49,750 nt of DNA, taken from assembly GCA_003490145.1 (NCBI GenBank), contig QULQ01000020.1:1-49750 (forward strand), read 5' to 3'. Position 1 is the first letter of the stretch, and each line of letters begins with the position of its first letter. A program made the translations under genes and the position numbers. Below the pieces are notes generated by a model. That model saw nothing but the letters and a program-made list of their open reading frames with translations, ran no database searches and was not told the DNA's origin. This stretch comes from Lachnospiraceae bacterium OM04-12BH. GTDB taxonomy: Bacteria > Bacillota > Clostridia > Lachnospirales > Lachnospiraceae. Below, piece after piece: positions 7,950 through 41,380 of the stretch.

Positions 7950-9557
7950 TTAAAATTCTTCTTCCAGAGGATCCTCCTCCGGTTCTTCCTCTTCTTCAAT
8001 CTCGATCTGAATATTATCAGAGATCAGTCTGGTCAGATTCGGGAATACAGCCTCCGGATTTCTGCCAGCCTGTGCATTTTTAATAACAACCTCCATAGCC
8101 TTACCTGCATAACCGGAAAGGTGCTTCTCCAGCTCTTCCTTGTGACCTTCCTGCCTGAAATAATCAAACGGAAGTCCGTCACCGAGAACAACCATAAGCT
8201 TCCCATCCTCCGAGAGGCTGGGATATGCCCCTTTCAGGTAGGTTTTCATAGGATTTGGCAGTTCTGAAATAGCCACAGACCATTTACCTGCCACCATCCT
8301 GATATCCTCCGGGACTGCTTCTGGAAGGGGTGCCTGCGGCTCTGGCTGAGCCGTACTCTGCTGTGGGCTGCTGCCGCCTTTCGCCGGGATCGTCTGTACA
8401 ATACCCTTTTCCAGCTTTTCCTCCAGATCCCGGATCCTCTCTGACAAAGATGATGTATCCACTTCCATCTGGGGTCTGCACAGCTTGATCAGTGCAATCT
8501 CGATCAGTACACGCTTCTGTGCTGCATACCGGATCTGTCCTGAAAGATCGGAAAGCACACGGATATACCGCATGATCCTGTCATAGTCAGTAAGCTCTGC
8601 TTCCTCTTTCAGATGGTTCAGATTATCTGTTGACATATCTATGATATCTTCGATCCCATCTGCTGTTTTAAGAAGCAGCAGGTTTCTCAGATACCAGGTA
8701 AAATCGGTTACAAACTGGGTCAGTTCCCTTCCCTGTACCACCATCTCCTCCAGGATGGCAAGTGTCTTGCTTACATCCTCCTCAAGGACAGCACGGAGCA
8801 GCCTGCTGAACACCTCCGTGTCCACAGCTCCAAGGACATCCAGCACCTTATCATACGTCAGTTCCTGTCCGAAATGAAAGGCAATACACTGGTCAAGAAG
8901 GCTTAGGGCATCCCGCATGGAGCCGTCCGCTGTCTTGGCGATATAGCGGATCGCCTTGTCCTCTATGGGAACCTTCTCAATCCCTGTCAGTTCCCGTATC
9001 CTGTCTGCGATCGTATCGATCGTGATCCTTCTGAAATCATACCGCTGGCACCTTGAAAGGATCGTGATCGGTATCTTATGTACCTCTGTCGTAGCCAGAA
9101 TAAAAATAACATAAGACGGTGGTTCCTCCAGTGTTTTCAGAAGAGCATTAAACGCTCCTATGGAAAGCATATGAACCTCGTCTATGATATAAACCTTATA
9201 TTTTCCTGCCGCTGGAGAATAGGCAACCTCTTCCACGATCTCCCTGATATTGTCCACACCATTATTGGATGCAGCATCAATCTCGATCACATTCATGGAT
9301 GCTCCTGCGGCAATGGCCTTACAGGTCTCACATTCTCCGCATGGACTTCCATCCACCGGGTGCTCACAGTTCACCGCCTTGGCAAAGATCTTGGCAATAG
9401 TGGTCTTACCTGTTCCTCTTGTTCCGCAGAACAGGTAGGCATGACCGATCCTGTCAGCCCTGATCTGGTTTTTCAGGGTCGTTACTATATGCTCCTGTCC
9501 CTTTACATCTTCAAATACTGTGGGACGAAATTTTCTGTAAAGAGCTGTATATGACAT
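7950..9557 (-). CDS. dnaX: DNA polymerase III subunit gamma/tau
   Basis: A 535-residue clamp-loader ATPase. The Walker A is GTRGTGKT (residues 45-52). The zinc module has Cys64, Cys73, Cys76 and Cys79. The DEVH box is at 126-129 and the SRC arginine-finger motif at 168-170. The AAA+ lid and collar domains are followed by a proline-rich linker and a C-terminal tau-like region that ends in an acidic tail (IEIEEEEEPEEDPLEEEF). I saw no obvious A-rich slippery heptamer that would make a short gamma form. The gene is 32 bp downstream of pfk and precedes ybaB-recR. No SRP RNA lies upstream, unlike in some Firmicutes. Confidence 0.97.
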   Translation of the reverse strand: MSYTALYRKFRPTVFEDVKGQEHIVTTLKNQIRADRIGHAYLFCGTRGTGKTTIAKIFAKAVNCEHPVDGSPCGECETCKAIAAGASMNVIEIDAASNNGVDNIREIVEEVAYSPAAGKYKVYIIDEVHMLSIGAFNALLKTLEEPPSYVIFILATTEVHKIPITILSRCQRYDFRRITIDTIADRIRELTGIEKVPIEDKAIRYIAKTADGSMRDALSLLDQCIAFHFGQELTYDKVLDVLGAVDTEVFSRLLRAVLEEDVSKTLAILEEMVVQGRELTQFVTDFTWYLRNLLLLKTADGIEDIIDMSTDNLNHLKEEAELTDYDRIMRYIRVLSDLSGQIRYAAQKRVLIEIALIKLCRPQMEVDTSSLSERIRDLEEKLEKGIVQTIPAKGGSSPQQSTAQPEPQAPLPEAVPEDIRMVAGKWSVAISELPNPMKTYLKGAYPSLSEDGKLMVVLGDGLPFDYFRQEGHKEELEKHLSGYAGKAMEVVIKNAQAGRNPEAVFPNLTRLISDNIQIEIEEEEEPEEDPLEEEF

Positions 9558-9589
9558 TCTGATATTTCCTTCCGGAAGCGTTCCTTCTC

Positions 9590-10663
9590 TTAATCTCCGA
9601 AGCTGATACCAAGAAGCTTGGCCTCCTTGACAATATCAGAATCCGGAGAAACCATTTTCAGCTTTCCTGCCACATCAGCAAGCGGAACCTTCACAATTTC
9701 TCTGTTCTTATATCCAACCATAAATCCGTACTCACCCTTCAGGATCAGTTCTCCTGCTTCTGCACCGAGACGGCTCGCAAATACTCTGTCATAAGGGCAG
9801 GGACTTCCGCCTCTCTGGGTATGTCCTGGTACTGTCACACGTACCTCTCCACCTGTCCTCTTCTGGATCTCATCTGCCAGCTCATAGGAAACGGAAGGAT
9901 ATTTATAACTCTTCATTTTTTCTTTGTATTCTTTTTTGGACAGCTTCGCATCCTCCTTGGAAATGGCTCCCTCAGCCACTGCCAGAATCGTAAAACGGCT
10001 GCCATCCTGGTTTCTCTTTTCGATTGCTTCTATAACCCTGTTAATATCATAGGGAATCTCCGGGATCAGTATAATATCTGCGCCGCCCGCCATACCGGCA
10101 TTCAATGTCAGGAACCCTACCTTGTGTCCCATAACCTCCACAATAAAGGTCCGCCCATGGGAAGATGCTGTTGTATGGATACAGTCAATAGCTTCTGTGG
10201 CAATATTGACAGCACTCTGGAAGCCAAAGGTCATATCTGTTCCCCAGAGGTCATTGTCGATCGTCTTCGGAAGTGTGATCACATTGAGTCCCTCTTCCCT
10301 AAGAAGGTTTGCTGTCTTATGGGTGCCGTTTCCTCCAAGGATAACCAGACAGTCAAGACGCAGCTTATAGTAATTCTGCTTCATGGCTTCTACCTTGTCG
10401 ACGCCGTTCTCATCAGGCTCCCTGATGGTCTTGAACGGAACTCTTGAGCTGCCGAGAATCGTTCCTCCCTTAGTAAGGATACCGGAAAAATCATGTCCGG
10501 CAAGCATACGGAAGTTCCCATAGATCAGTCCCTTATAGCCATCCAGGAAGCCATAAATTTCCACATCTTCATTACTGTTTACGAGGCACTTTACCACACC
10601 CCTCATTGCTGCGTTCAGTGCCTGACAGTCACCGCCGCTCGTTAACATACCGATTCTCTTCAT
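9590..10663 (-). CDS. 6-phosphofructokinase, group III type
   Basis: A 357-residue cytosolic phosphofructokinase making fructose 1,6-bisphosphate. The nucleotide loop is MLTSGGDCQALNA at the N-terminus. The phosphoryl-donor determinants read GGNGT (residues 110-114), where ATP enzymes have GGDG and PPi enzymes GGDD, and PKTIDND (132-138), where ATP enzymes have a Gly and PPi enzymes a Lys. Gly plus Lys is the mixed group III pattern, in which characterised members use ATP or, less often, PPi. The active-site MGHKVGFLTL and PGHTQRGG motifs are intact. It has its own probable promoter and precedes dnaX by 32 bp. Confidence 0.93.
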   Translation of the reverse strand: MKRIGMLTSGGDCQALNAAMRGVVKCLVNSNEDVEIYGFLDGYKGLIYGNFRMLAGHDFSGILTKGGTILGSSRVPFKTIREPDENGVDKVEAMKQNYYKLRLDCLVILGGNGTHKTANLLREEGLNVITLPKTIDNDLWGTDMTFGFQSAVNIATEAIDCIHTTASSHGRTFIVEVMGHKVGFLTLNAGMAGGADIILIPEIPYDINRVIEAIEKRNQDGSRFTILAVAEGAISKEDAKLSKKEYKEKMKSYKYPSVSYELADEIQKRTGGEVRVTVPGHTQRGGSPCPYDRVFASRLGAEAGELILKGEYGFMVGYKNREIVKVPLADVAGKLKMVSPDSDIVKEAKLLGISFGD

Positions 10664-10701
10664 TTGAAAGCCCTTCCTTTCTTTTGGAAAAATACCTTTT
10701 A

Positions 10702-10730
10702 AGTATACCCCATTTACAGCATATCTACAA
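10702..10730 (-). promoter_or_regulatory. Probable promoter of the pfk-dnaX-ybaB-recR block
   Basis: TTGTAG (10725-10730) and TATACT (10702-10707) are separated by 17 bp on the minus strand. The -35 element overlaps the stop codon of the upstream glycosyltransferase. No clear terminator separates the two transcripts, so some readthrough is possible. Confidence 0.45.
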
Positions 10731-11747
10731 CCGCTTTCTCAGATTCCTGTAGGTCCACAGCAGCCTGTAATACAGCATAAACAACAGGGTGGATCTGCTC
10801 TGCAGACGGATCAGCTTTCTTTCCTCTGCATGAACTCTCTCCCCATAATATTTATTTTCCATAAACCCGGGAAACGTCTCTTTCATCTCCCTGTAAAGTG
10901 CTTTCACAAATCCATATTCCTTTTTCTTCACACCAGCCATATAGGAAAACAGGGTATTTACATAAAACAGGGTGGTAAAGCTGCTTTCGATCTCCGGATA
11001 ATACTGCTCCAGATAGTCAAATTCCCTGGCCTCCCTGACCATCACTCTTGCTGCTTCCATGCGGTCCTCGCACCGGCTTTTTGTAATCGTATGCACCGTA
11101 GAGCTGTCATGCTGATAATAGTAATACATGGGCTCCTGGATATATTCAAAATGCTTCGCTCTCAGCATCCAGGAATTACTGATGGCGTTATCCTCATAAA
11201 AAATATGCTCGGGAAAACGGTTGGGATAATCCAGGATGATATGCCTCCTGTAAATCTTCACCACAAGACTGCCGCTGTCCAGAATCAGGGATCGGTATTT
11301 TTCCTCATTCAGGATCCCCGCCTGTGAAGGCTTGTTATTGTGTACGATCTGGCCGATCTGCATGCTGTGCTCTCCGGTCAGATGATAATCACACCCAACC
11401 ATATCCGCACCGGTTTCTTCTGCCTTCTTCAGCAGCTTCTCATAATAATCATCACAGACCCAGTCATCGCTGTCGATAAATCCGATCCATTCGCCCTGCG
11501 CTTTCGCAAGCCCCAGGTTCTTGGCTCCGCCCTGTCTTCGGTTCTCCGGTGAGGCGATCACCTTCACCTTCTCTGGATATTTTCTTTCGTAGCTTCTAAG
11601 GATCTCCAATGATCTGTCCGTCGAACAGTCATCTACTGCTATGATCTCATAGTCCTCTATGGTCTGGTTCACCAGACTGTTCATACAGAAGGAAAGCTTA
11701 TCGCCCTCTGCCATATTATATACCGGTACAATCACACTGAGTAACAT
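10725..11747 (-). CDS. Family 2 glycosyltransferase (GT-A fold)
   Basis: A 340-residue GT2 enzyme. The N-terminal nucleotide-sugar domain opens with LSVIVPVYNM, then AVDDCSTDRS and the metal-binding DSDDW (residues 92-96). The C-terminal 140 residues are helical and basic (ending YRNLRKRL), the usual membrane-peripheral tail of capsule or teichoic-acid glycosyltransferases. There is no transmembrane span. Donor and acceptor are not predictable. It lies about 55 bp downstream of the PseC-like aminotransferase on the same strand. The ATG has AAGAGG close upstream. Confidence 0.88.
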   Translation of the reverse strand: MLLSVIVPVYNMAEGDKLSFCMNSLVNQTIEDYEIIAVDDCSTDRSLEILRSYERKYPEKVKVIASPENRRQGGAKNLGLAKAQGEWIGFIDSDDWVCDDYYEKLLKKAEETGADMVGCDYHLTGEHSMQIGQIVHNNKPSQAGILNEEKYRSLILDSGSLVVKIYRRHIILDYPNRFPEHIFYEDNAISNSWMLRAKHFEYIQEPMYYYYQHDSSTVHTITKSRCEDRMEAARVMVREAREFDYLEQYYPEIESSFTTLFYVNTLFSYMAGVKKKEYGFVKALYREMKETFPGFMENKYYGERVHAEERKLIRLQSRSTLLFMLYYRLLWTYRNLRKRL

Positions 11748-11801
11748 ATCCTCTTGTCTCCGCCCTTATACTGTCTGCCTTTTCGTGTCTCTTACAGCTT
11801 C

Positions 11802-12995
11802 TTAAGCCTTAAAATACTCTGCAATTCTGGTAACTGCCCGGATCACATCCTCTACATCCTGATCAGTCATGGCATAATAAAGAGGAAGGCTGATCTCTTC
11901 TGCATAGAGCTTCTCCGCTTTTGGGCAAAGTCCCCTTTTGTAGCCAAGCTTTTCATAGTAAGGGAAATAATAGGTAGGAATATAATGCACATTACAACAG
12001 ATATTTTCTGCTGCCAGGGCCTCAAAAAACTGCTTTCTGTCAATCGTCAGCTTCTCTGGGCGGATCCGCAGGATATACAGATGCCTTGTGGTATCAGATT
12101 CCGGAATCTCCTGCTGTACAAAAAGCTGCGGCAGCCTGGAAAAAGCCTCATTATAAGCCTTCACAATTGCCTTTCTTCGCTCCATGAATCTCGGAAGCTT
12201 ATTGAGCTGGCTGATAATCAGCGCCGCCTGCATATCCGTCATACGGTAGTTCATCCCAAGTGCGATCTGTTCGTAATACCAGGGGCCATCCGGCTCATGC
12301 TCCATGAGCTTCGGATCTCTGGTAATACCATGGGCACGATATAATAAAAGCTTCTCATAATATTCTTTACTGTTGGTAAGGACTGCACCGCCTTCGCCTC
12401 CTGTTACGGTCTTTACCGGATGAAAGCTCATGGTCGTCATGTCAGCAATGGATCCGTTCATCCTGCCCTTATAGCTGGTGCCGATCACATGGGCGCCATC
12501 CTCGATAAGTACCAGATTATGTTTTCTGCAGTGGGTAAGCAATCTGTCCAATTCCACAGACTGACCCGTAAAGTCAACTGCTACTACGGCCTTTGTTCTC
12601 TCTGTTGTCAGCTTCTCCACATGTGCCGGATCTATGTTATAGGTATTTTCATTGATATCTGCAAAGACAGGCTTTGCCCCACAGTACAGTGCACAGTTTG
12701 CAGAGGCGGCAAAGGTAATCGGTGTAGTGATCACTTCATCTCCCGGCATAACTCCGGCTGCCAGACAGGCAATATGAAGTGCCGCTGTCCCATTGCTGCA
12801 TACAACTGCATATTTTGCTCCCGTTACTTCACACAGCTTTTCTTCCAGTTCCCCGATCTTGGGACCACAGGTCAGATAATCACTTTTCAGCACATCTACA
12901 ACTGCCTGGATATCATCCTCATCAATAAACTGGTGTCCATAAAATATTTTTGTACTGCGGACAGGTTCCCCTCCGCAGATTGCCGGTTTCTCCAT
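11802..12995 (-). CDS. PseC-like DegT/DnrJ/EryC1 sugar-nucleotide aminotransferase
   Basis: A PLP-dependent enzyme of the DegT/DnrJ/EryC1 family, which puts an amino group on a 4-keto (or 3-keto) UDP/dTDP-sugar. Two ATGs are possible. The second (12995, MEKPAICGG) lies 8 nt after AGGAGG, while the first (13001) is only 2 nt away, so 397 residues is preferred. The PLP lysine is in SFHPVKTVTGGEGG (Lys195), with the cofactor-binding SNGTAALH and IEDGAHVIG motifs. Overall it reads most like PseC (pseudaminic acid step 2). No pseB, pseH or other pse gene is in the window. It starts 20 bp after the histidine kinase gene, in a possible Pho transcript. Confidence 0.85.
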   Translation of the reverse strand: MEKPAICGGEPVRSTKIFYGHQFIDEDDIQAVVDVLKSDYLTCGPKIGELEEKLCEVTGAKYAVVCSNGTAALHIACLAAGVMPGDEVITTPITFAASANCALYCGAKPVFADINENTYNIDPAHVEKLTTERTKAVVAVDFTGQSVELDRLLTHCRKHNLVLIEDGAHVIGTSYKGRMNGSIADMTTMSFHPVKTVTGGEGGAVLTNSKEYYEKLLLYRAHGITRDPKLMEHEPDGPWYYEQIALGMNYRMTDMQAALIISQLNKLPRFMERRKAIVKAYNEAFSRLPQLFVQQEIPESDTTRHLYILRIRPEKLTIDRKQFFEALAAENICCNVHYIPTYYFPYYEKLGYKRGLCPKAEKLYAEEISLPLYYAMTDQDVEDVIRAVTRIAEYFKA

Positions 12996-13015
12996 ATTCA
13001 TTGCCTCCTGTTATT

Positions 13016-14383
13016 CTATGACGTCTGCCGGAACCTGGCCTCCCTGATCGCAGGAAATGTTACCGTGATCTCTGTCCCTTCTCCCGGCTCACTCTTTAGT
13101 GCAATTTCCGCATTTAATTTTAACAGAATATGCTTGACGATTGCAAGTCCAAGACCCGTTCCCCCTGTGGATTTGCTTCTACTTTTATCCACCCGGTAAA
13201 AACGCTCGAAGATCCGTTCCTGATGTTCCCTCGGAATACCAATACCGGTATCCTTCACCGTCAGTACTGCCAGATCCAGGCGGTCTTCCACGATCACACT
13301 GACGCTTCCCTTTTCCTTATTGTACCTGATTGCATTATCACACAGGTTGTAAAGCACCTCATCCACCATCTGATGATTAGCTGATATCACTACATTCACG
13401 CCACTCACCGTAAGGGTAACACCATGCTTCTCTGCATTCAGCTGCAGCATATCAACACAGTTTTTTGCACATTCATAAAGATTGACAGGTTCCATAGTCT
13501 CCTGATTTTCTGAATCATCCAGCTCTGACAGACGTATCACGTCATTGATCAGTACCAGGAGTCTTCCTGCATTTTTGTGGATCTCACCACAAAACCGACG
13601 CACCTCCCCCTCTTCTGCGACCATGCCGTTTTCCACAAGCTCTGCATAACCGGAGATCGCTGTCAGTGGTGTCTTCAGTTCATGGGAAACATTGGCTGTA
13701 AATTCCTGCCTGAGCCTTGCATTTTCCAGCACGTCATCCTGCTGTCTCTGAATAGCCTCAATGAAGGGCTTCATTTCTTCATAAGAAGAAACCTCTCCTG
13801 TCTCCCCGCCGCTCTCTGCGATCTGCCGTATAGGACGGATGATCCCTTCTGCCAAATAATACGAAACTATCCCACATACAACCAACAGCGCTGCTACGAT
13901 CAGTAGAAGATACGGCACTGCATATTCCATTACCTTGTAAATACTGTCAGCTTCCCTGGCAACCCGCAGGACAGTCCCATCCTTCAGAAGCATGGCATAA
14001 TAGTAGGTATTTTCATCCAGTGTGGCAGATCTTCGGATCTCAAAGCCACCTCCATCTGTAAGAGCTTCCTGTACTTCCGGCCTGCTCTTATGATTCGAAA
14101 GACCGTCCGCACGCACCTGGGAATCGTACAGCACATCTCCTTCATGGTCTATCACAGTAATACGGATATCCTGTGCACCATTTTCTCCTGTCAGAGGTGC
14201 AAGTGACTTCTCAATATCCTCAGTGCCCTCCAGCAGTCCTGCTGCCATCTGTGCATAGTGTCTGCTATCCTCCAGCACCTGCTTTTTCAGCAGATTATAA
14301 TAAACAGCTACCGTAAGCAAAAGGGTAACCACAATTGCCAGAGTAGCTGTTGCAAATAGTCTGTTATATATTTTTCTCTTCAT
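13016..14383 (-). CDS. PhoR-like sensor histidine kinase
   Basis: A 455-residue membrane kinase. Span 1 is at about residues 13-32. An extracytoplasmic sensor of about 120 residues follows, then span 2 at about 156-177, a short linker and the dimerisation helix with phospho-acceptor His234 in NVSHELKTPLTAISGY. The ATPase domain has the N box (LYNLCDNAIRYN), the G1 box (VKDTGIGIPREH) and the G2 box (GGTGLGLAIVK). The G2 region carries the KSTGGTGLGL form seen in PhoR kinases. It is 12 bp downstream of its response regulator within the pst/pho block, so phosphate sensing is the natural inference. Confidence 0.9.
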   Translation of the reverse strand: MKRKIYNRLFATATLAIVVTLLLTVAVYYNLLKKQVLEDSRHYAQMAAGLLEGTEDIEKSLAPLTGENGAQDIRITVIDHEGDVLYDSQVRADGLSNHKSRPEVQEALTDGGGFEIRRSATLDENTYYYAMLLKDGTVLRVAREADSIYKVMEYAVPYLLLIVAALLVVCGIVSYYLAEGIIRPIRQIAESGGETGEVSSYEEMKPFIEAIQRQQDDVLENARLRQEFTANVSHELKTPLTAISGYAELVENGMVAEEGEVRRFCGEIHKNAGRLLVLINDVIRLSELDDSENQETMEPVNLYECAKNCVDMLQLNAEKHGVTLTVSGVNVVISANHQMVDEVLYNLCDNAIRYNKEKGSVSVIVEDRLDLAVLTVKDTGIGIPREHQERIFERFYRVDKSRSKSTGGTGLGLAIVKHILLKLNAEIALKSEPGEGTEITVTFPAIREARFRQTS

Positions 14384-33715: not shown

Positions 33716-33756
33716 AAAAGGTGTACCAGAGCAGTTCTCCGGTACACCTTCTTTTT
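33716..33756 (+). terminator. Terminator of the dnaD-dnaI-prs operon, probably bidirectional
   Basis: A perfect stem (AAGGTGTACC / GGTACACCTT) with a 13-nt loop is followed by CTTTTTG on the plus strand. The minus strand, 14 bp beyond the stop codon of the convergent gene, shows a weaker T-rich tail (TTTTACTTTT), so it may serve both. Confidence 0.85.
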
Positions 33757-33769
33757 GTTCTGTTCAGTT

Positions 33770-36700
33770 TTACTGTTCGTAATCCTTCTTAAGTCTGTTA
33801 TTTACTTCCTTAAGGATTTCTCCGGGAACTCCCTTTTCAAAGATATCCCGTAGTCCCACCTTCTGCACAGCTTCACAGTAAGGTGTTTCAGCAGAAACAG
33901 CAGTCAGCTCCAGATATTTATCAACCGCTGCTTCCCTGTCCTCTCCTGCCAGAGCAAAGAGATCAAGACTTGTGAAAGCCGATGTACCATAACCAAGGTA
34001 GTAGCAGGGCTGCATAAAAAGATGGGGAATATCTACCCAGGAATACAGCTCCTGGATATCCTGATCATTTACAGCCATTCCATACTCTCTGGCCAGATTA
34101 CAGTACAGCTTGTTCATCTCTTCTCTTGTCATATCCGGGTTTTCATACACACAGATCTCAAATTCAGCAAGCATACAGGCATTAGCTGTCTGCTCTGCAA
34201 GCTGCACCACATCCTGCAGTCGGAACATGTCTCCAGCTTCACCCTGGATCATATCCTGATCGTAATCATAAAAGAGCATTTCCAGTCCTTGGGAATGAAT
34301 TTCACAAAGATCCATATTATTCACGACAAATAATGGATTACTCTTTTTATGAACTGCGTAGTTGTAGTGCCCAAATTCATGAATAGTCGTCACATAATCC
34401 TGACAGGTTCCATATGGTGCATCGAAAATAAAAGCATCTCCGTACCAGGGAAGTTCTATGGTATATCCAGTCTGTGCCTTGCTTTCTCCCGCATCCATAT
34501 CATAAAGATCATATGCAAGCATATGATCAAAGGCTTCTTCCATCTCCGGATCCAGCTCCCCAATGTATTTCTGCACAGCCGAAAGCCTCTCCGCTGCCGG
34601 ACTGTCATTCAGCTCCTCCAGTGCGGAATCATCCATTTCATAGTAAAGAGATTCTATTTCGATCAGCCATGGCATGACTTCTTTTTTTACCTGTTTGAAC
34701 AGGGCTTTAGCGTCTGCCGTGTCATAGTCCCGCAGATACAAGCCCCCATAGGCATACTCAGCATAGTTATCATATTCATACTCTCTGGCAAGCTGATCCC
34801 TGACAGATACCAGTTCACAGTAAATTTCCCCGATCACACTGTTTTTCTCCTCATACAGTGCTCTCTGAACCGCCTGATATTTCTCTACTGCCAGGCTGTC
34901 TTCCTCCGTTTCCAGCATGGCAAAGCTCCAGGTTTTTCCCTCATACTCTGCATCATAATCATCCAGCAGTGCTTCATTATATTCCTGCTGCAGGCTGTTT
35001 TCCTTCAGGATCAAATCTTTTTCCTGCTCTGTCATTTCTTCATAATCCTGAAGGGAGCTTATTTCACTTTCAGTAAATACCTCAGAAAAAATTTCTTTGT
35101 AAGGAGAATTACATATCTGCGCCATAACTGCATAAACTCTGTCCGTAATATCCACAGCATCCTCATACTGCTGTTCCTGCAGGCTGGCATTCTCTTCATC
35201 CCGCACATCCATGTCGTAGCGGATCTGAGACAGGGAATTACAGGTTCTCACCCGGATACAGCCATCCAGAAGACTTTCATACAGAGAAAGCGCTTTCTCT
35301 TCCTGAAGAACTACTGTTTCCTGATTTTCTTCCTGTCTGACCGCTTCTTTGGCCAGTTCCTCAAGATGATCCGCAGTTTCATATATGACATCTTTGTCAT
35401 AGGTCAGATCCCTTTCTGCAAAAGGAACCTCTGACCAGTTATTACTCTGATAGAGAGTCGTTGTCCGGTAAACATACAGTGTATACGGAGATGACTCATC
35501 CGTATAGGTTCCGATCAGTGTAAACCCTTCCTCCTCTGCATTGGAAATGCAGATCCGGCTGAACAAATATCTTCCGGAAAGTGCCTTAAAGGCATCCACA
35601 TCAATGGCAAGACTCTCATCCTCCACGTGATAATCCCTAACCGCCATCACAAGAGAGTTTTCCGTTGGGGAATACAGATATGCTCTGGCTCCCCAGGTGT
35701 CGAAATACTCCGCAGATGCCGCATTCTGCGACAGAGCCGGTGCGATCACCTTCCGGAACCTGTCCTTATAGTCCTGGGAATAAAAGCCAAGGTAGCCATC
35801 CAGGGTAGAAATTCCGTTATATTCAAGAATCGCCGGGTGGAAGCCATAAGCCGCCGACCACTCTCCATTATAACCAATGTCCTCCTTCGCTTTCGCAAAG
35901 AGCTCTTCCGAATAAAATTCTCCGTAGCTTAAGTCATTGGATTCCTTTCCTTTCAGGATCTCATATGCCTTCGCTACACAAGTATGATAAAGATCATTAT
36001 ATCTCGTTCCCGAAAATACGATCAGCAGTACTGCTGCCACTGCCAGCAGATCCGTCAGAACGCACAGCCATTTTTTCTTTTCCTGATACAATCTCACAAG
36101 AACAACAAGAAATGCAAGATACCAGACAAAGGGGTTAAAGAAGATCGTCCTGTTGAACTGCCAGCCTTTCAGAGGTGGCACTATCTTTTCGATCAGGCTG
36201 CGGAAAGGCTCCAGATAGTAAATGCCATATACCACGCTGTTAAACACCAGAAGCACCATCAGCAGATTGTAACCGTCATGGAAAATCCCTTTCATATTTC
36301 CTTTCCGGATATAAGACACATTGAGAAACAGGAAATACAGAAGACAGACCGGCATCACCAGATATGTATGTATGCTTTCCGCATGGAACATTCCCTGTCT
36401 GAATCCCTCGACCATGGTTTTCACAATTTCTCCACCTGTAAAGCTTCCCGCCTCCATGGTAGACCGGATCGTTTCCTCACTTCCAAACAGCATGGTTCCA
36501 AACAGCCGGTACTCAAACAGGATGTAGCCCGCTGAAAGTACGATAAGGGAAAGGATCATCCGAAACGGAAATTTTCGGTCCCTGATCCACAGAATAACAA
36601 AGGCTATCGCCAGATATCCCAGGATAAACAGGCCAAAATAAGAAAAATAGGATAACAGTGGATAAAGAAATAACAGCAGATACCACCCTGCCGACGGACT

Positions 36701-37186
36701 TCTGTATATTTTCCGCAGGAGATATACCACCAGAGGAACAGATGCGAAGGGTATACCAAAGGCCGGAAAAACATTCAGGATCCCATAAGCAAACCCGGCA
36801 AGAAAGATCACCGGCTTACTTTCTCCATACTGATCCTTAAACAGATCTCTGGCAAGGAGCACCATGGAAAAGGTACCGATCACGATCTTTAGCAGATATC
36901 CTGCCACATACGCATAGTAAGATGGCAGGATCATATACAACAGAGAATAAAGTGAAAACTCGGAAGGCAGTACATCCCGGCTGATCCCCCCAAGAAACGG
37001 CACTTCTACGCCATGCTTCCAAAAGGCTCCTGTATTCTTCAGCATCTGGAACTGTGCCACGAACAGATCCAGGTTATCATGCACGGAAATAATACTTCCC
37101 TTTCCGAAAATCCCAAACACAAGGGCTGCAAAAACAAGAAAGCCGATGATCAGAACAAGATACCATTTTTCTGCTATTTTTTTCAC
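33770..37186 (-). CDS. YkoS/DUF6044-like membrane protein fused to an M3-type metallopeptidase
   Basis: A 1138-residue two-part protein. Residues 1-395 hold about 11-12 membrane spans in the style of GT-C/YkoS-like (DUF6044) proteins. Residues 420-575 match the conserved extracytoplasmic part of that family (FHPAILEYNGISTLDGY ... FDTWGARAYL). From about 600 to 1138 the protein is acidic and helical, with the gluzincin site HEFGH (936-940, DNA 34367-34381) and the third zinc ligand Glu962 in CEIHSQGLEM, as in M3/oligoendopeptidase-F enzymes. The reading frame is continuous. The start is GTG, with AGGAG 9 nt upstream. Topology puts the peptidase domain outside the cell. It is 3 bp downstream of a GT2 gene. 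Substrate unknown. Confidence 0.85.
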   Translation of the reverse strand: MKKIAEKWYLVLIIGFLVFAALVFGIFGKGSIISVHDNLDLFVAQFQMLKNTGAFWKHGVEVPFLGGISRDVLPSEFSLYSLLYMILPSYYAYVAGYLLKIVIGTFSMVLLARDLFKDQYGESKPVIFLAGFAYGILNVFPAFGIPFASVPLVVYLLRKIYRSPSAGWYLLLFLYPLLSYFSYFGLFILGYLAIAFVILWIRDRKFPFRMILSLIVLSAGYILFEYRLFGTMLFGSEETIRSTMEAGSFTGGEIVKTMVEGFRQGMFHAESIHTYLVMPVCLLYFLFLNVSYIRKGNMKGIFHDGYNLLMVLLVFNSVVYGIYYLEPFRSLIEKIVPPLKGWQFNRTIFFNPFVWYLAFLVVLVRLYQEKKKWLCVLTDLLAVAAVLLIVFSGTRYNDLYHTCVAKAYEILKGKESNDLSYGEFYSEELFAKAKEDIGYNGEWSAAYGFHPAILEYNGISTLDGYLGFYSQDYKDRFRKVIAPALSQNAASAEYFDTWGARAYLYSPTENSLVMAVRDYHVEDESLAIDVDAFKALSGRYLFSRICISNAEEEGFTLIGTYTDESSPYTLYVYRTTTLYQSNNWSEVPFAERDLTYDKDVIYETADHLEELAKEAVRQEENQETVVLQEEKALSLYESLLDGCIRVRTCNSLSQIRYDMDVRDEENASLQEQQYEDAVDITDRVYAVMAQICNSPYKEIFSEVFTESEISSLQDYEEMTEQEKDLILKENSLQQEYNEALLDDYDAEYEGKTWSFAMLETEEDSLAVEKYQAVQRALYEEKNSVIGEIYCELVSVRDQLAREYEYDNYAEYAYGGLYLRDYDTADAKALFKQVKKEVMPWLIEIESLYYEMDDSALEELNDSPAAERLSAVQKYIGELDPEMEEAFDHMLAYDLYDMDAGESKAQTGYTIELPWYGDAFIFDAPYGTCQDYVTTIHEFGHYNYAVHKKSNPLFVVNNMDLCEIHSQGLEMLFYDYDQDMIQGEAGDMFRLQDVVQLAEQTANACMLAEFEICVYENPDMTREEMNKLYCNLAREYGMAVNDQDIQELYSWVDIPHLFMQPCYYLGYGTSAFTSLDLFALAGEDREAAVDKYLELTAVSAETPYCEAVQKVGLRDIFEKGVPGEILKEVNNRLKKDYEQ

Positions 37187-37189
37187 TCT

Positions 37190-38134
37190 TTACTTCTCCT
37201 CTCTCTGTCTCAGTTCTTTTTCGCAGACGAGAGTATAACGATATTCAAAGTCTCTCCGGTTCTTCTGCGCACTGTTGGATAACATCAGTCCCGCAAAGAA
37301 AGACTGGATGGCAGCCAGCATGACAAATCCACACACGATCAGCGTCGGGAACTTCAGTACCAGTCCTGTAGCAAAATATTCTGCCAGTACCGGTATAAAA
37401 AACAACACCGAAACTACTGCCAGCAGAAGTGCAAACAGACTGAAAAAGCCAAAGGGCTTATAATCCCGGTACAGCCTGAAAATGGTCCCAAGAACCCTAA
37501 ATCCATCAGCATAGGTATTCAGCTTGGATACACTGCCCTCTGGCCTGTCCCTGTAATCCACGATCACATTATCGATCTGCAGCTGATTATATACAGCATG
37601 GATCGTCATTTCTGTTTCGATTTCAAAGCCCTTTGACAGAATTGGGAAAGTCTTGACAAAGCCATAACTGAATGCGCGGAATCCGGTCATAATATCCTTG
37701 ATATCACACTGAAACAGCCGATTGATACTGGCGCGTACCAGGGAATTTCCCATATTGTGGAAGGGACGCTTGTTTTCCGAAAAATAAGTGGAAGAAAGCC
37801 TGTCTCCGACTACCATATCTGCATTGTGATGCAGTACCTTGTCTACCATTTCCGGTGCGAATTCCATGGGATAGGTATCATCCCCGTCCACCATGATATA
37901 GCAGCGGGCTTCCACTTCCCGGAACATCCTGCGGATGACATTGCCTTTTCCCTGCATATATTCATGCCGGATCACAGCCCCTGCTTCCCTTGCCAGTTCT
38001 ACCGTTCTGTCTGTGGAATTATTATCGTATACATAGATCACCGCCTCTGGCAGTGCTGCCTTTGCATCTGCTACCACCTTGGCAATCGTCTTTTCCTCAT
38101 TATAACAGGGAATCAATACTGCTATCTTATCCAT
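37190..38134 (-). CDS. GT2 polyprenyl-phosphate-type glycosyltransferase
   Basis: A 314-residue membrane-bound family 2 glycosyltransferase of the DPM1/GtrB style. It has VLIPCYNEEKTIAKVV, the metal-binding VDGDDTYP (Asp83, Asp85, Asp86), the GFRAFSYGFVK and EIETEMTIHA segments, and two C-terminal membrane spans (about residues 232-255 and 270-292). Such enzymes charge undecaprenyl phosphate with a sugar for use by a GT-C partner on the outer face. The following gene, 3 bp away, encodes a YkoS-like candidate partner. The start overlaps the end of plsC by 8 bp and has AAAGGAG. Confidence 0.88.
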   Translation of the reverse strand: MDKIAVLIPCYNEEKTIAKVVADAKAALPEAVIYVYDNNSTDRTVELAREAGAVIRHEYMQGKGNVIRRMFREVEARCYIMVDGDDTYPMEFAPEMVDKVLHHNADMVVGDRLSSTYFSENKRPFHNMGNSLVRASINRLFQCDIKDIMTGFRAFSYGFVKTFPILSKGFEIETEMTIHAVYNQLQIDNVIVDYRDRPEGSVSKLNTYADGFRVLGTIFRLYRDYKPFGFFSLFALLLAVVSVLFFIPVLAEYFATGLVLKFPTLIVCGFVMLAAIQSFFAGLMLSNSAQKNRRDFEYRYTLVCEKELRQREEK

Positions 38135-38879
38135 ATCCGTTCTCCTTTGCTTCTTCCTTCAGACGGAAATAATTTTCCATGATCAGATCTCTGCTGTATG
38201 CACCAACCCTTTTCTGGGTTTCCTTCGGCAGATCCTTAATGTAGAAGGGCTTGCCGTACTCTACGATCACCGTGGTTTTCCTGATCCACGGGATATGATC
38301 TTCAAAAATAGCAGCAGAATTATAGATTGCCATAGGCACTACAGCGCAGCCACTTTTGCTTGCCACCTTAAAGCTTCCCTCATGGAATTCCATAAAGGTA
38401 TCATTTACCCGGTTTCTGGTTCCCTCTGGGAAAATACAGATGGATATACCTGCTTTCACCTTGTCAATGGCAGTCAATATGGTCTTCAGTCCCTGCTTCA
38501 CATCCTGTCTGTCCAGGAACAGACAATGCAGATTCTTCATCCAGTTTACCAGAAGCGGCCATCTCAGCATTTCCTTCTTGGCGATATATCCTGTCAGATC
38601 TGGAACTCTTGAATATGTGATAACAATATCAAAATAGCTCCTGTGGTTTCCCACGTACAGAACCGGTTCATTTTTTGGTACATTTTCCTCACCTTTTATA
38701 ACAACCTTGGTACCAGCAAGAAACAGGATCATCTTAAATGCCCACTGCACGATGCGCAGGGAGCTGATATCCTTCGCCCTCTGATTAAATTTACCGATCA
38801 CCCACTCGATCAGCAGCAGCGGTATGCCAAGCACCAGAAAAAGTACCAGAAATACTGCAACCAAAATCAAACGTATCAT
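38127..38879 (-). CDS. PlsC-family 1-acylglycerol-3-phosphate acyltransferase
   Basis: A 250-residue membrane-anchored acyltransferase. An N-terminal hydrophobic segment (residues 3-28) is followed by the catalytic NHRSYFD box (78-84, HX4D) and the substrate motif FPEGTRNR near residue 150. It acylates lysophosphatidic acid or a related acceptor at the membrane. It lies in a tight leftward operon (28 bp from the GH9-like lipoprotein gene, 8-bp overlap with GT2). It may therefore serve a lipid-linked glycan rather than bulk phospholipid synthesis, although that is inference. Confidence 0.9.
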   Translation of the reverse strand: MIRLILVAVFLVLFLVLGIPLLLIEWVIGKFNQRAKDISSLRIVQWAFKMILFLAGTKVVIKGEENVPKNEPVLYVGNHRSYFDIVITYSRVPDLTGYIAKKEMLRWPLLVNWMKNLHCLFLDRQDVKQGLKTILTAIDKVKAGISICIFPEGTRNRVNDTFMEFHEGSFKVASKSGCAVVPMAIYNSAAIFEDHIPWIRKTTVIVEYGKPFYIKDLPKETQKRVGAYSRDLIMENYFRLKEEAKENGYG

Positions 38880-38907: not shown

Positions 38908-40416
38908 TCAGCTTCCGGAAACAATGCCAGCCAGCATAAATATCAGCATACTGTCTTCTTTGAACTGATTGATCACACAGGGAGCTTCCTCTGTGTCATC
39001 GCTGATATAATCAATCCCCCTCTCATTTCTGCCTAGGAGATAATGGAGCTGGTTTTCTATCATCTGCTTATACTCGTAATTGGAAATCACGTGATTGACC
39101 ACTGTCAGATATGCTGCCTGCGTCAGGATCCTGCTGCTGTCACCCTCTGCTTCTGAGGAAGTCATATACAGGGATCCCCTGACTTCCTCAGAAATTTCTT
39201 CAGCCTGATCCATCAGCATCGTCATGATCTTTTCACACAGTACCATACTTACCGCCTGTTTCGTAGATATATATGTAACACAGCCTGAAAGCTGCACCAT
39301 ATCCTCTGCCAGCGTCAGATCTCCATCTGAAAGATATTCTACCAGATATTTCTGATAGGATACCTGCCCTGCCGCCCGGTAAATCTCTGCCGCAGCTGCA
39401 AACCGCCAGATTTTTTCTTCCCGGTCATCTGCTTCCTCACATAAAACTGCATGCTTAAATGCCCGGTCCGCTGCTTTCAGACAGGTCATGGCATATTCCT
39501 TGTCATAATTCTGATACAGATATCCGAACTTTGCCATTGTCATGGCAAAAGCAAATTCCGCCCCTGCACAGGCCGGTTCCACATAACTGCCCTTGTCATA
39601 AGCTGTAACACCCGCATATACTGCACCGGTCTGTTTATCCTGCATTTTAAGAAACCACCCGGTTTCATAACGGATCTCATCCAGAATATCCGGGATCTGA
39701 TTTCCACTTTCCGGTATTCCTTCCTGGTCGGTATATTCCTGTGGATACAGCTCATAGGACATCATCAGCACAGCCATAGCCCTGGAAGCACCGGTAATAT
39801 TTTTTTCACCATTTTCATTCTGATGCCATCCACCGGAAGCATCCATACTTACAGAATCATTTCCCCGGAGCACACTCTTACCGGTATGACAGGCATTATG
39901 TGCCTTATCCCCCGCATACTCACTGCCAAGGGTCATACCGCACCGGTTATAATAATACTGTTTACAGGCCTCCTGAAAAAGGGAATCATACACCGTATCC
40001 GATATGGAAAAAGAATAGGATTTCCCAAGGATCGGTGCTTCTATGTAATAGGTGCCCGGAGCAGCAAAATCAGAAAAGTCACCGTATGCCTCCTTTTCTT
40101 CTCCCTCTTCCTTTCGGATCTCCGGATACCCCTGATAAACAATCTGTTCTGTTTTCTTATCTACCACATAAAATTCCTGCGGCAGATCCTTTCCTTTAAA
40201 AATAACAGTTTTATTCTCCTCTGGCAGATAGCCGAGCCGGTCAACCAGGATCCCCGGCATGCTTACCGGCACCTCATAAGAAAGCTGTGGTTCTTGTTCC
40301 ATACTGTCAGCCTCAGGTATATTTTCCTGGCCATTCTGCCGGTTTTCCTTTATACTGCCGCATCCCGTAAGGACAATCAGGCAAAGGAAAACCCAAATTA
40401 CCGAATGCCTTCGCAA
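38908..40416 (-). CDS. GH9-like lipoprotein lacking the catalytic aspartate motif
   Basis: The ribosome binding site (GGGAGG, 40424-40429) is 7 nt before a TTG at 40416, which is the likely start and gives 502 residues. A signal peptide ends in the lipobox LTGC (Cys19). An Ig-like cellulase N-domain follows (SMPGILVDRLGYLPEENKTVIF), then an alpha/alpha barrel of glycoside hydrolase family 9 type. Active GH9 enzymes have GGWYDAGD with a catalytic Asp; here the same place reads GGWHQNEN. The C-terminal part after YLLGRNERGIDY is short and lacks the usual His/Arg and Asn-Glu segments. It is probably a surface glycan-binding pseudoenzyme. It is first in a four-gene operon. Confidence 0.75.
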   Translation of the reverse strand: MRRHSVIWVFLCLIVLTGCGSIKENRQNGQENIPEADSMEQEPQLSYEVPVSMPGILVDRLGYLPEENKTVIFKGKDLPQEFYVVDKKTEQIVYQGYPEIRKEEGEEKEAYGDFSDFAAPGTYYIEAPILGKSYSFSISDTVYDSLFQEACKQYYYNRCGMTLGSEYAGDKAHNACHTGKSVLRGNDSVSMDASGGWHQNENGEKNITGASRAMAVLMMSYELYPQEYTDQEGIPESGNQIPDILDEIRYETGWFLKMQDKQTGAVYAGVTAYDKGSYVEPACAGAEFAFAMTMAKFGYLYQNYDKEYAMTCLKAADRAFKHAVLCEEADDREEKIWRFAAAAEIYRAAGQVSYQKYLVEYLSDGDLTLAEDMVQLSGCVTYISTKQAVSMVLCEKIMTMLMDQAEEISEEVRGSLYMTSSEAEGDSSRILTQAAYLTVVNHVISNYEYKQMIENQLHYLLGRNERGIDYISDDTEEAPCVINQFKEDSMLIFMLAGIVSGS

Positions 40417-40448
40417 GATTCTTCCTCCCAAATGGTATATCTCTATTG

Positions 40449-40513: not shown

Positions 40514-41380
40514 CTAGCTGAGTCTTGTCATGGGATTGACAGGATTACCATCCTTTGTCAGCTTGAAATATACATTGGTTCCCTCAATACTGTAGTATTT
40601 CGTCGGAGCTGCCACACTGGCGATCATATCTCCCATGGACACATAGCTGCCTTCTGAGACCAGTATTTCCTTAAGCTGTCCGTAGGTGATCTCATATCCA
40701 TTACCAAGATCCATAGTAACCGCCTGCCCGATCTGCGGATCCTCAAATACACTTGTCACTTTACCCGCTGCCGCTGCCGTGATCATGTCTCCCTCATTTG
40801 CAGCGATTACAATAGCCGGGTTATATTTGTACTGATCCAGTGTCGGGAAATACACGGTCTTGTCCATACTGTAATTGATCAGCACGTTTCCTACGACCGG
40901 CCAGACAAGAGTATCCGTATCTCCAAAGGAAAGAGTCGGCTGCATGGCCGTGGAGATTGCTGGTGCATCTGTTTCCTGAGCTTTCGTGCCTGTTCCTTCC
41001 TCTTCTGCCGCATCTTCAGGCAGCTTTTCTCCTGCTGCCACATCCTCTGCCGGTGATGCTGACATACTCTCACTTACAGACCCATCCGGATTCTCCACGT
41101 TCTGCGACCCTGTTTCCTGAAAATATGGATCATAATCAAGGTCGTCTCCCGTCACCTCCTGTTCCTGCACATGCTGGATCGCCCTGATCTCATCCCCAGT
41201 ATCATTTGCCGCTCCGTTTTCCATTTCACTTAAGTCCACAACATATCCACGGTCCTGCGTGGAAGTACTGTCCTTCATCCACAAGCCTGTGGCTGTTAAT
41301 ACCCCAAGCACCGTAACAGCACAGACTGCCATGGCGATCCGTTCCTTCAGCAGACCTTTTCTTCTTATTTTCCTTTTCAT
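40514..41380 (-). CDS. Membrane-anchored LytM/M23-fold protein without catalytic residues
   Basis: A 288-residue protein with a basic N-terminus, one membrane span (about residues 15-32), a long Glu/Ser/Ala-rich linker to about residue 150 and a C-terminal LytM/M23-like beta domain (VWPVVGNVLINYSMDKTVYFPTLDQYKYNPAIVI...). In active M23 peptidases this domain has an HxxxD and an HxH motif. Here the corresponding places read YKYNPAIVIAA and NVYFKL, with no histidine in the whole domain. A structural role like that of degenerate SpoIIQ proteins is possible. GGAGAGA precedes the ATG. Confidence 0.75.
   Translation of the reverse strand: MKRKIRRKGLLKERIAMAVCAVTVLGVLTATGLWMKDSTSTQDRGYVVDLSEMENGAANDTGDEIRAIQHVQEQEVTGDDLDYDPYFQETGSQNVENPDGSVSESMSASPAEDVAAGEKLPEDAAEEEGTGTKAQETDAPAISTAMQPTLSFGDTDTLVWPVVGNVLINYSMDKTVYFPTLDQYKYNPAIVIAANEGDMITAAAAGKVTSVFEDPQIGQAVTMDLGNGYEITYGQLKEILVSEGSYVSMGDMIASVAAPTKYYSIEGTNVYFKLTKDGNPVNPMTRLS

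Follow-up and report, generated by a model that had tools for sequence, protein, structure and literature searches.

A single gene of Lachnospiraceae bacterium OM04-12BH (33770..37186 on the minus strand of contig QULQ01000020.1, assembly GCA_003490145.1) encodes a protein in which a polytopic membrane part of the GT-C glycosyltransferase kind is continued by an M3-type metallopeptidase domain. We call the window the whole stretch of 49,750 nucleotides of this contig that was analysed. The question raised by the locus is whether the two halves act together on the same molecule, as the preliminary description of the window had proposed, or independently of each other. We consider it likely that the protein is a bifunctional surface enzyme with independent activities, the GT-C half providing at the same time the export route and the anchor of an ectopeptidase. 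The combination appears to be undescribed, each half being of a known kind: the open-licence PMC literature yielded nothing on DUF6044 and nothing on GT-C/peptidase fusions, and, among the titles and abstract beginnings listed, nothing on point about tethered or exported M3 peptidases.

Domain organisation of the fusion protein

The frame is open throughout its 1138 codons and runs on the minus strand from 37186 to 33770, so that the single frame first described, for which no strand was given, stands. A YkoS/DUF6044-like region had been proposed for residues 1-575, and the Pfam DUF6044 profile indeed matches residues 3-575 (E=7.5e-172, 573 bits for a cut-off of 27, model positions 4-563 of 564). 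The proposed C-terminal M3-type domain was recovered by the NCBIfam profile TIGR02289 (M3_not_pepF) at residues 640-1133 (E=1.8e-54, 185 bits for a curated cut-off of 442) and by a sequence search of solved structures, in which only oligoendopeptidases F and Pz-peptidase were found at E<0.001 (2h1j, E=3.5e-37). The TIGR02289 cut-off is also missed by the five free-standing relatives tested, with 161-212 bits. By its sequence the window peptidase is accordingly M3-like, not a TIGR02289 member. A fold search with the full-length predicted model found the M3 fold, and since the rows shown returned the peptidase only, the DUF6044 part was modelled separately; a GT-C fold was then found for it. The gene, its parts and the residues discussed below are the following:

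33770..37186, minus strand: gene of the GT-C/M3 fusion, with 1138 codons from a GTG start; it closes its cluster
36014..37186, minus strand: membrane-embedded portion of DUF6044 with a GT-C fold and 11 spans predicted, or 9 on the lower count (residues 1-391)
35462..36013, minus strand: predicted outside domain ending DUF6044 (residues 392-575)
35396..35461, minus strand: junction between DUF6044 and peptidase, confidently modelled (residues 576-597)
33773..35395, minus strand: M3-type metallopeptidase domain (residues 598-1138)
37067..37081, minus strand: HDNLD, a candidate for the acidic motif of GT-C enzymes, in outside loop 1 (residues 36-40)
34367..34381, minus strand: HEFGH, with zinc ligands H936 and H940 and catalytic E937 (residues 936-940)
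34301..34303, minus strand: E962, third zinc ligand
34022..34024, minus strand: H1055, aligned with a His near the C-terminus of 2h1j
33989..34003, minus strand: residues 1062-1066, aligned with the P-F-Y-Y-x-x-Y segment of 2h1j

Conservation was assessed on an alignment of 107 sequences, comprising the window protein and 106 homologues of more than 1000 amino acids, and on a subset of 49 of these sharing less than 80% identity and having at least 1090 amino acids. The zinc site is exactly as had been described: H936, E937, H940 and E962 are invariant (107/107), and the window protein shows the M3 arrangement of an HExxH followed by a Glu about 22 residues past the second His. Near the C-terminus, H1055, Y1062 and Y1066 (each 49/49) align with the His and Tyr residues of the HxxxxPxYYxxY segment of 2h1j, where they presumably act in catalysis. 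On the GT-C side, D37 and D40 are found in 107/107 sequences, N38 in 106/107 and H36 in 105/107. HDNLD is therefore a candidate for the DxD-like acidic motif of the outside loop, with a putative catalytic role.

Topology and origin of the peptidase half

From the helices of the models, the hydropathy of the 107 sequences and the positive charges, we assigned 11 spans by hand, a number that drops to 9 when two short hairpins are left out; only the former figure falls within the 11-12 spans first claimed. Either number is odd, and therefore the long C-terminal end lies on the same side as the HDNLD loop, a loop that is outside in GT-C enzymes. Lys and Arg number about 11 per 39 residues in the inside loops and about 7 per 125 in the outside loops preceding the end domain, and the 747-residue end region contains on average 58 Lys/Arg versus 151 Asp/Glu. 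The peptidase domain is thus predicted to face outside, as had been anticipated.

A second line of support for this topology comes from the relatives of the peptidase, because they look exported. The M3 part alone retrieved 306 matches; 117 of the 120 listed were new (P0122-P0238), and after removal of three short pieces and of one fusion (P0214) 113 free-standing relatives were left, from Lachnospiraceae and other Clostridia where the source is named. HExGH is present in 112/113. Simple hydropathy rules detected an N-terminal hydrophobic segment in 111/113, a C-terminal hydrophobic helix in 93/113 and a lipobox-like motif in 13/113 (27, 21 and 2 of 28, respectively, once the set was collapsed at 60% identity), and SLH domains (PF00395) occur on four of the matches listed. 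The canonical M3 gene of the carrier genome L108, a single contrast case, has no such N-terminus. Judging from these sequences, the peptidase half derives from an exported-looking M3-like group, and the initial premise that M3 enzymes are normally soluble does not suit its closest free-standing relatives, which are often seemingly membrane- or wall-tethered. P0124, P0135, P0203 and others thus represent a sizeable group of M3-like peptidases, most of them without a name, that look exported and combine a signal-like N-terminal segment with SLH domains or a C-terminal helix.

Distribution and evolution of the fusion

A protein search returned 233 matches among 7997 candidates scored. Both halves are present in 106 of the 120 matches listed, 36-99% identical to the window protein, each of more than 1000 amino acids with a DUF6044 annotation and a HE[FY]GH motif. 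This rules out an assembly artefact or a frameshift at the junction. The search of genomes for the same fusion, suggested at the outset as a control of such artefacts, consisted of a single scan of a genome collection, in which the best 80 of 279 related loci were analysed and found to comprise 15 fusions and 65 DUF6044-only loci. The two halves are hence not always separate in close relatives; the fusion is conserved. The possibility that they exist as separate neighbouring genes was also discarded: when M3 domains were used as queries against the DNA fetched for the 65 DUF6044-only loci, neither blastp (E up to 1e-8) nor tblastn (with E up to 1) detected an M3 gene of its own. A distant second fusion, suggested by a frame of 1128 amino acids in genome G162, was rejected, its locus holding separate DUF6044-type genes. 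The fusion is recurrent but uncommon: a match through both halves was found in 2/397 genomes of a sample of Lachnospiraceae in which no more than 2 candidates per genome were scored, and a fusion frame of more than 1070 amino acids in 6/195 relatives of G003.

Both halves are under purifying selection. The ratios of nonsynonymous to synonymous substitution rates (dN/dS) of the GT-C and M3 parts were 0.063 and 0.089 between the window and L001, 0.067 and 0.052 between L006 and L007, and 0.113 and 0.120 between L003 and L004. For three more distant pairs no ratio is given where dS was saturated, which affected the M3 part of all three and the GT-C part of one.

A neighbourhood in which GT2 is followed by DUF6044, whether or not M3 is attached, and then by PRPP synthetase is shared by 14/15 fusions and 16 DUF6044-only loci; L026 was seen on its upstream side only, further genes intervene in L010-L012, L014, L021 and L031, and the PRPP side is inverted in L014. 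A quick tree of DUF6044 comprised 90 rows, 22 of them fused and 68 alone, the eroded fusions P0116 and P0214 described below being excluded; on it the fused or alone label needs at least 6 changes, 3 of which are forced by well-supported branches. In a careful M3 tree, the 27 fusion rows form one clade against 24 free-standing rows chosen by hand from the 113 (support 96/89). A single origin of the fusion followed by several losses fits best with both trees, which by themselves are blind to gain versus loss. In L018 the loss of the peptidase is seen directly: past the stop of its DUF6044-only gene, an in-frame stretch matches the last M3 residues of its close relative L024 at 12/15 residues, with a score of 60 for a shuffle maximum of 50 and 0/300 single-base shuffles as good. 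Such remnants were sought behind the stop of 17 DUF6044-only loci (the 16 of the shared neighbourhood and L023), and none of the other 16 was significant, 6%, 8% and 11% of shuffles being as good for the next three and at least 55% for the remaining 13. In L024 itself (fusion at 9983-13270) the DUF6044 half is very close to that of peptidase-less relatives and the M3 half sits on a long branch; nested among these relatives, L024 may have kept its M3 domain or regained it by recombination.

Fusions with an eroded GT-C half

Loss was also observed in the other direction. Of 15 M3 sites, 14-15 are kept in P0116, P0214, P0239 and the protein of G404, as against only 10-16 of 27 GT-C sites; their later membrane part is reduced to 5-100 of 156 residues. 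Seven of eight ordinary fusions score 27/27 GT-C sites in the same table and P0109 scores 25; the sites were chosen by hand from invariant or nearly invariant columns of the 49-row alignment, whose rows score high by construction. The four eroded proteins stand outside this alignment, so that the contrast between their halves is a fair one. P0239 is the one further eroded fusion among the 11 matches of a search with P0214. Pfam Peptidase_M3 matches P0116 and G404 above its cut-off and P0214 below it, and does not match the window protein, L024 or P0239. The G404 locus retains GT2, PlsC and GH9 neighbours. There is thus no strict need of one half for the other, since relatives with the same neighbourhood lack the peptidase and four fusions with an intact zinc site have an eroded GT-C half.

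Gene neighbourhood

The genes next to the fusion in the window and the hairpin behind it are the following:

37190..38134, minus strand: glycosyltransferase of the GT2 (GT-A) kind, with AglJ as its best named match, though below cut-off; it lies upstream of the fusion at a distance of 3 bases
38127..38879, minus strand: acyltransferase of the PlsC type, with an 8-base overlap with the GT2 gene
38908..40431, minus strand: upstream neighbour, lipoprotein (read from sequence) with CelD_N and GH9-like domains
40514..41380, minus strand: upstream neighbour, M23 domain protein, SpoIIQ-like match of 51 bits for a cut-off of 250
33716..33752, minus strand: terminator-like hairpin of 16 pairs, 17 bases past the fusion stop

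A co-encoded GT2 enzyme had been reported from the outset, and a GT2 gene lies directly upstream in 14/15 fusion loci, the exception being L013. For the 65 DUF6044-only loci the counts are 16 with GT2 directly upstream, 7 with it directly downstream, 10 with it upstream at no more than 2 kb, 19 with it at another place in the locus and 13 whose fetched DNA lacks it. The GT2 protein of the window ends in two C-terminal hydrophobic stretches, read from its sequence. The fusion thus has the partner GT2 of multi-component transmembrane glycosylation, and we infer that this enzyme makes the lipid-linked sugar. As for flippases, a GtrA domain is fused to the DUF6044 N-terminus in P0117, and L050 has a separate GtrA gene (9465-10004) directly upstream of DUF6044 and overlapping its start.

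The terminator-like hairpin stems from a consensus scan that gave 12 such sites in the 8 kb scanned versus 5.5 expected. In the GH9-like lipoprotein, which is conserved in this cluster, GGWHQ is read in 22/23 copies at the stretch where GH9 enzymes carry a DAGD motif; because of this replacement its activity may be altered or lost. MurF-type and D-Ala-D-Ala-ligase-type genes occur in the same cluster in L003, L005, L010, L014 and L031 (Pfam-checked in L003 for both and in L010 for the Mur ligase, the rest read from sequence), and an Acyl_transf_3 membrane protein follows the fusion in L010, L014 and G404, where the window has its hairpin. The positions in these loci are as follows:

L003 3775-6184, L010 6568-9050 and L014 6584-9053: MurF-/D-Ala-D-Ala-ligase-type genes between the upstream neighbours and GT2, without window counterpart
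L010 13411-15120, L014 13428-15128 and L129 13858-15591: Acyl_transf_3 protein directly after the fusion

In L034 further large proteins (8495-9919 and 11908-13428) flank DUF6044, the downstream one matching PMT weakly (27.5 bits for a cut-off of 22.7), which suggests that loci of this type are clusters of several GT-C enzymes. Overall, the genomic setting of the fusion looks like that of cell-wall metabolism.

Comparison with known systems

The GT-C half resembles YkoS of B. subtilis and GtlB of Listeria, the GT-C partners of YkoT and GtlA in multi-component transmembrane glycosylation, in its DUF6044 family, its GT2 partner gene and its outside acidic motif. Both are stand-alone GT-C proteins as described, whereas the window protein adds a complete metallopeptidase domain. 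A control search of B. subtilis with PF19510 gave a positive match, which we take to be YkoS. According to the literature consulted, GtlB galactosylates lipoteichoic acid and is 49% identical to YkoS, and the target of the B. subtilis YkoS-type GT-C enzymes is termed unknown. The window GT-C part is about 8-13% identical to OST/STT3, AftD, ArnT and PMT, whose outside domains are not known to be peptidases.

The window M3 domain shares 20-22% identity with Pz-peptidase A and oligoendopeptidase F (3aho, 2h1j), from which it differs by falling below the curated family cut-offs, by its predicted outside location and by its tie to a polytopic membrane protein. Its closest free-standing relatives among the matches listed, for example P0124, P0135 and P0203, are 33-43% identical to it where full length. 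Such peptidases have no glycosyltransferase part; each starts with a signal-like segment, and many also bear SLH domains or a helix at the C-terminus.

Proposed function and alternatives

We propose that the neighbouring GT2, judged by its family, would load a sugar on polyprenyl phosphate in the cytoplasm, and that a GtrA-type flippase encoded elsewhere would turn the lipid-linked sugar outward. The DUF6044 GT-C half, by its computed fold and motif, would transfer this sugar to an outside acceptor, likeliest a cell-wall glycopolymer by analogy with GtlB and YfhO. The M3 half, to which the domain, zinc site and topology computed above point, would be held outside by the membrane part and cleave short peptides, the GT-C half serving in place of the N-terminal signal-like segment, and often also the C-terminal membrane helix, used by its free relatives. 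Pheromone degradation by intracellular M3 enzymes, and their link to the recycling of signal peptides, are described in PMC9173638; by analogy, the outward peptidase could serve nutrition, recycling or signalling.

Several points weigh against two independent activities at the cell surface. The window protein misses the curated M3 cut-off (TIGR02289), and with Pfam Peptidase_M3 no match reaching E=1 was obtained for it. The signal-like segments of the free relatives were counted by simple hydropathy rules. No GtrA was found among the annotated genes of the window cluster, and the flippase step rests on GtrA genes located elsewhere in 6/6 related genomes searched. Eroded GT-C halves are known from four fusions, a single one of which (G404) has a readable neighbourhood, and there transferase function may partly persist. 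Finally, the fusion could persist because the two activities matter to each other.

This last point leads to the readings that couple the halves. It seems unlikely that they form a direct glycosylation-proteolysis machine, later dismantled in some lineages, in which an exported peptide, or a wall precursor bearing one, is tagged by the lipid-carrier-dependent GT-C half and also processed by the M3 half; a strict need of the halves for each other is disfavoured because loss runs both ways. We are equally doubtful of the coupled enzyme first suggested, in which one and the same exported peptide or protein would be glycosylated by the GT-C half and trimmed by the M3 half. A single polypeptide of single origin with purifying selection on both halves would suit it, as would the fold relationship of the GT-C half to the protein-glycosylating OST and PMT. 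The same fold, however, also fits modifiers of lipid A or wall polysaccharides (ArnT, AftD), and the peptidase-less relatives of the same neighbourhood and the four eroded fusions argue against it. Moreover, no conserved peptide-substrate gene stood out among the open reading frames of at least 90 amino acids in 11 of the best 80 loci, shorter genes not having been searched.

Conversely, the peptidase might be the part that matters and the GT-C half an anchor without transferase activity. The eroded GT-C halves beside nearly complete M3 sites agree with this, but the window keeps its GT-C sites with a low GT-C dN/dS, HDNLD is nearly invariant, GT2 adjoins nearly all fusion loci and DUF6044-only relatives are many, which makes a mere anchor quite improbable. 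Some larger GT-C enzymes, for instance AftD, bear outside carbohydrate-binding domains according to PMC8035078, and the M3 domain might by extension be a non-catalytic module presenting a peptide-bearing acceptor to the GT-C half. We regard this as very improbable, given invariant zinc ligands, E937, H1055, Y1062 and Y1066 and a zinc site retained where the GT-C half is eroded.

Finally, a device specific to sporulation, on the pattern of the ykoST operon that SigG controls in B. subtilis, is hardly credible. In its favour, PMC5836110 places YkoS and YkoT under SigG and SpoVT, the M23 gene upstream of the fusion matches SpoIIQ below threshold, and SpoIVA together with a strong SigG match is found in the carriers G001 and G002. 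Against it, the carriers G003 and G004 lack a SpoIVA match and a strong SigG match, an absence that is weak evidence, both being metagenome-assembled genomes. The best SigG E-values are about 1e-33 and 1e-32 in G003 and G004 versus 6e-118 or lower in the other four genomes, the curated SigG cut-off being reached in 0/6. SpoIIQ gave no match above its cut-off in six genomes, and in G001 and G002 stronger matches lie elsewhere than in the M23 gene of the cluster. A role in sporulation only is thus not favoured.

The preferred reading of independent activities on one surface protein bears on both families. A natural fusion with an outside peptidase offers a handle on YkoS-type GT-C enzymes, and it draws attention to M3-like peptidases that form a cell-surface group in Lachnospiraceae of the gut and rumen. 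As either half has been removed or eroded in different lineages, cooperation of the two activities is testable by comparing orthologues.

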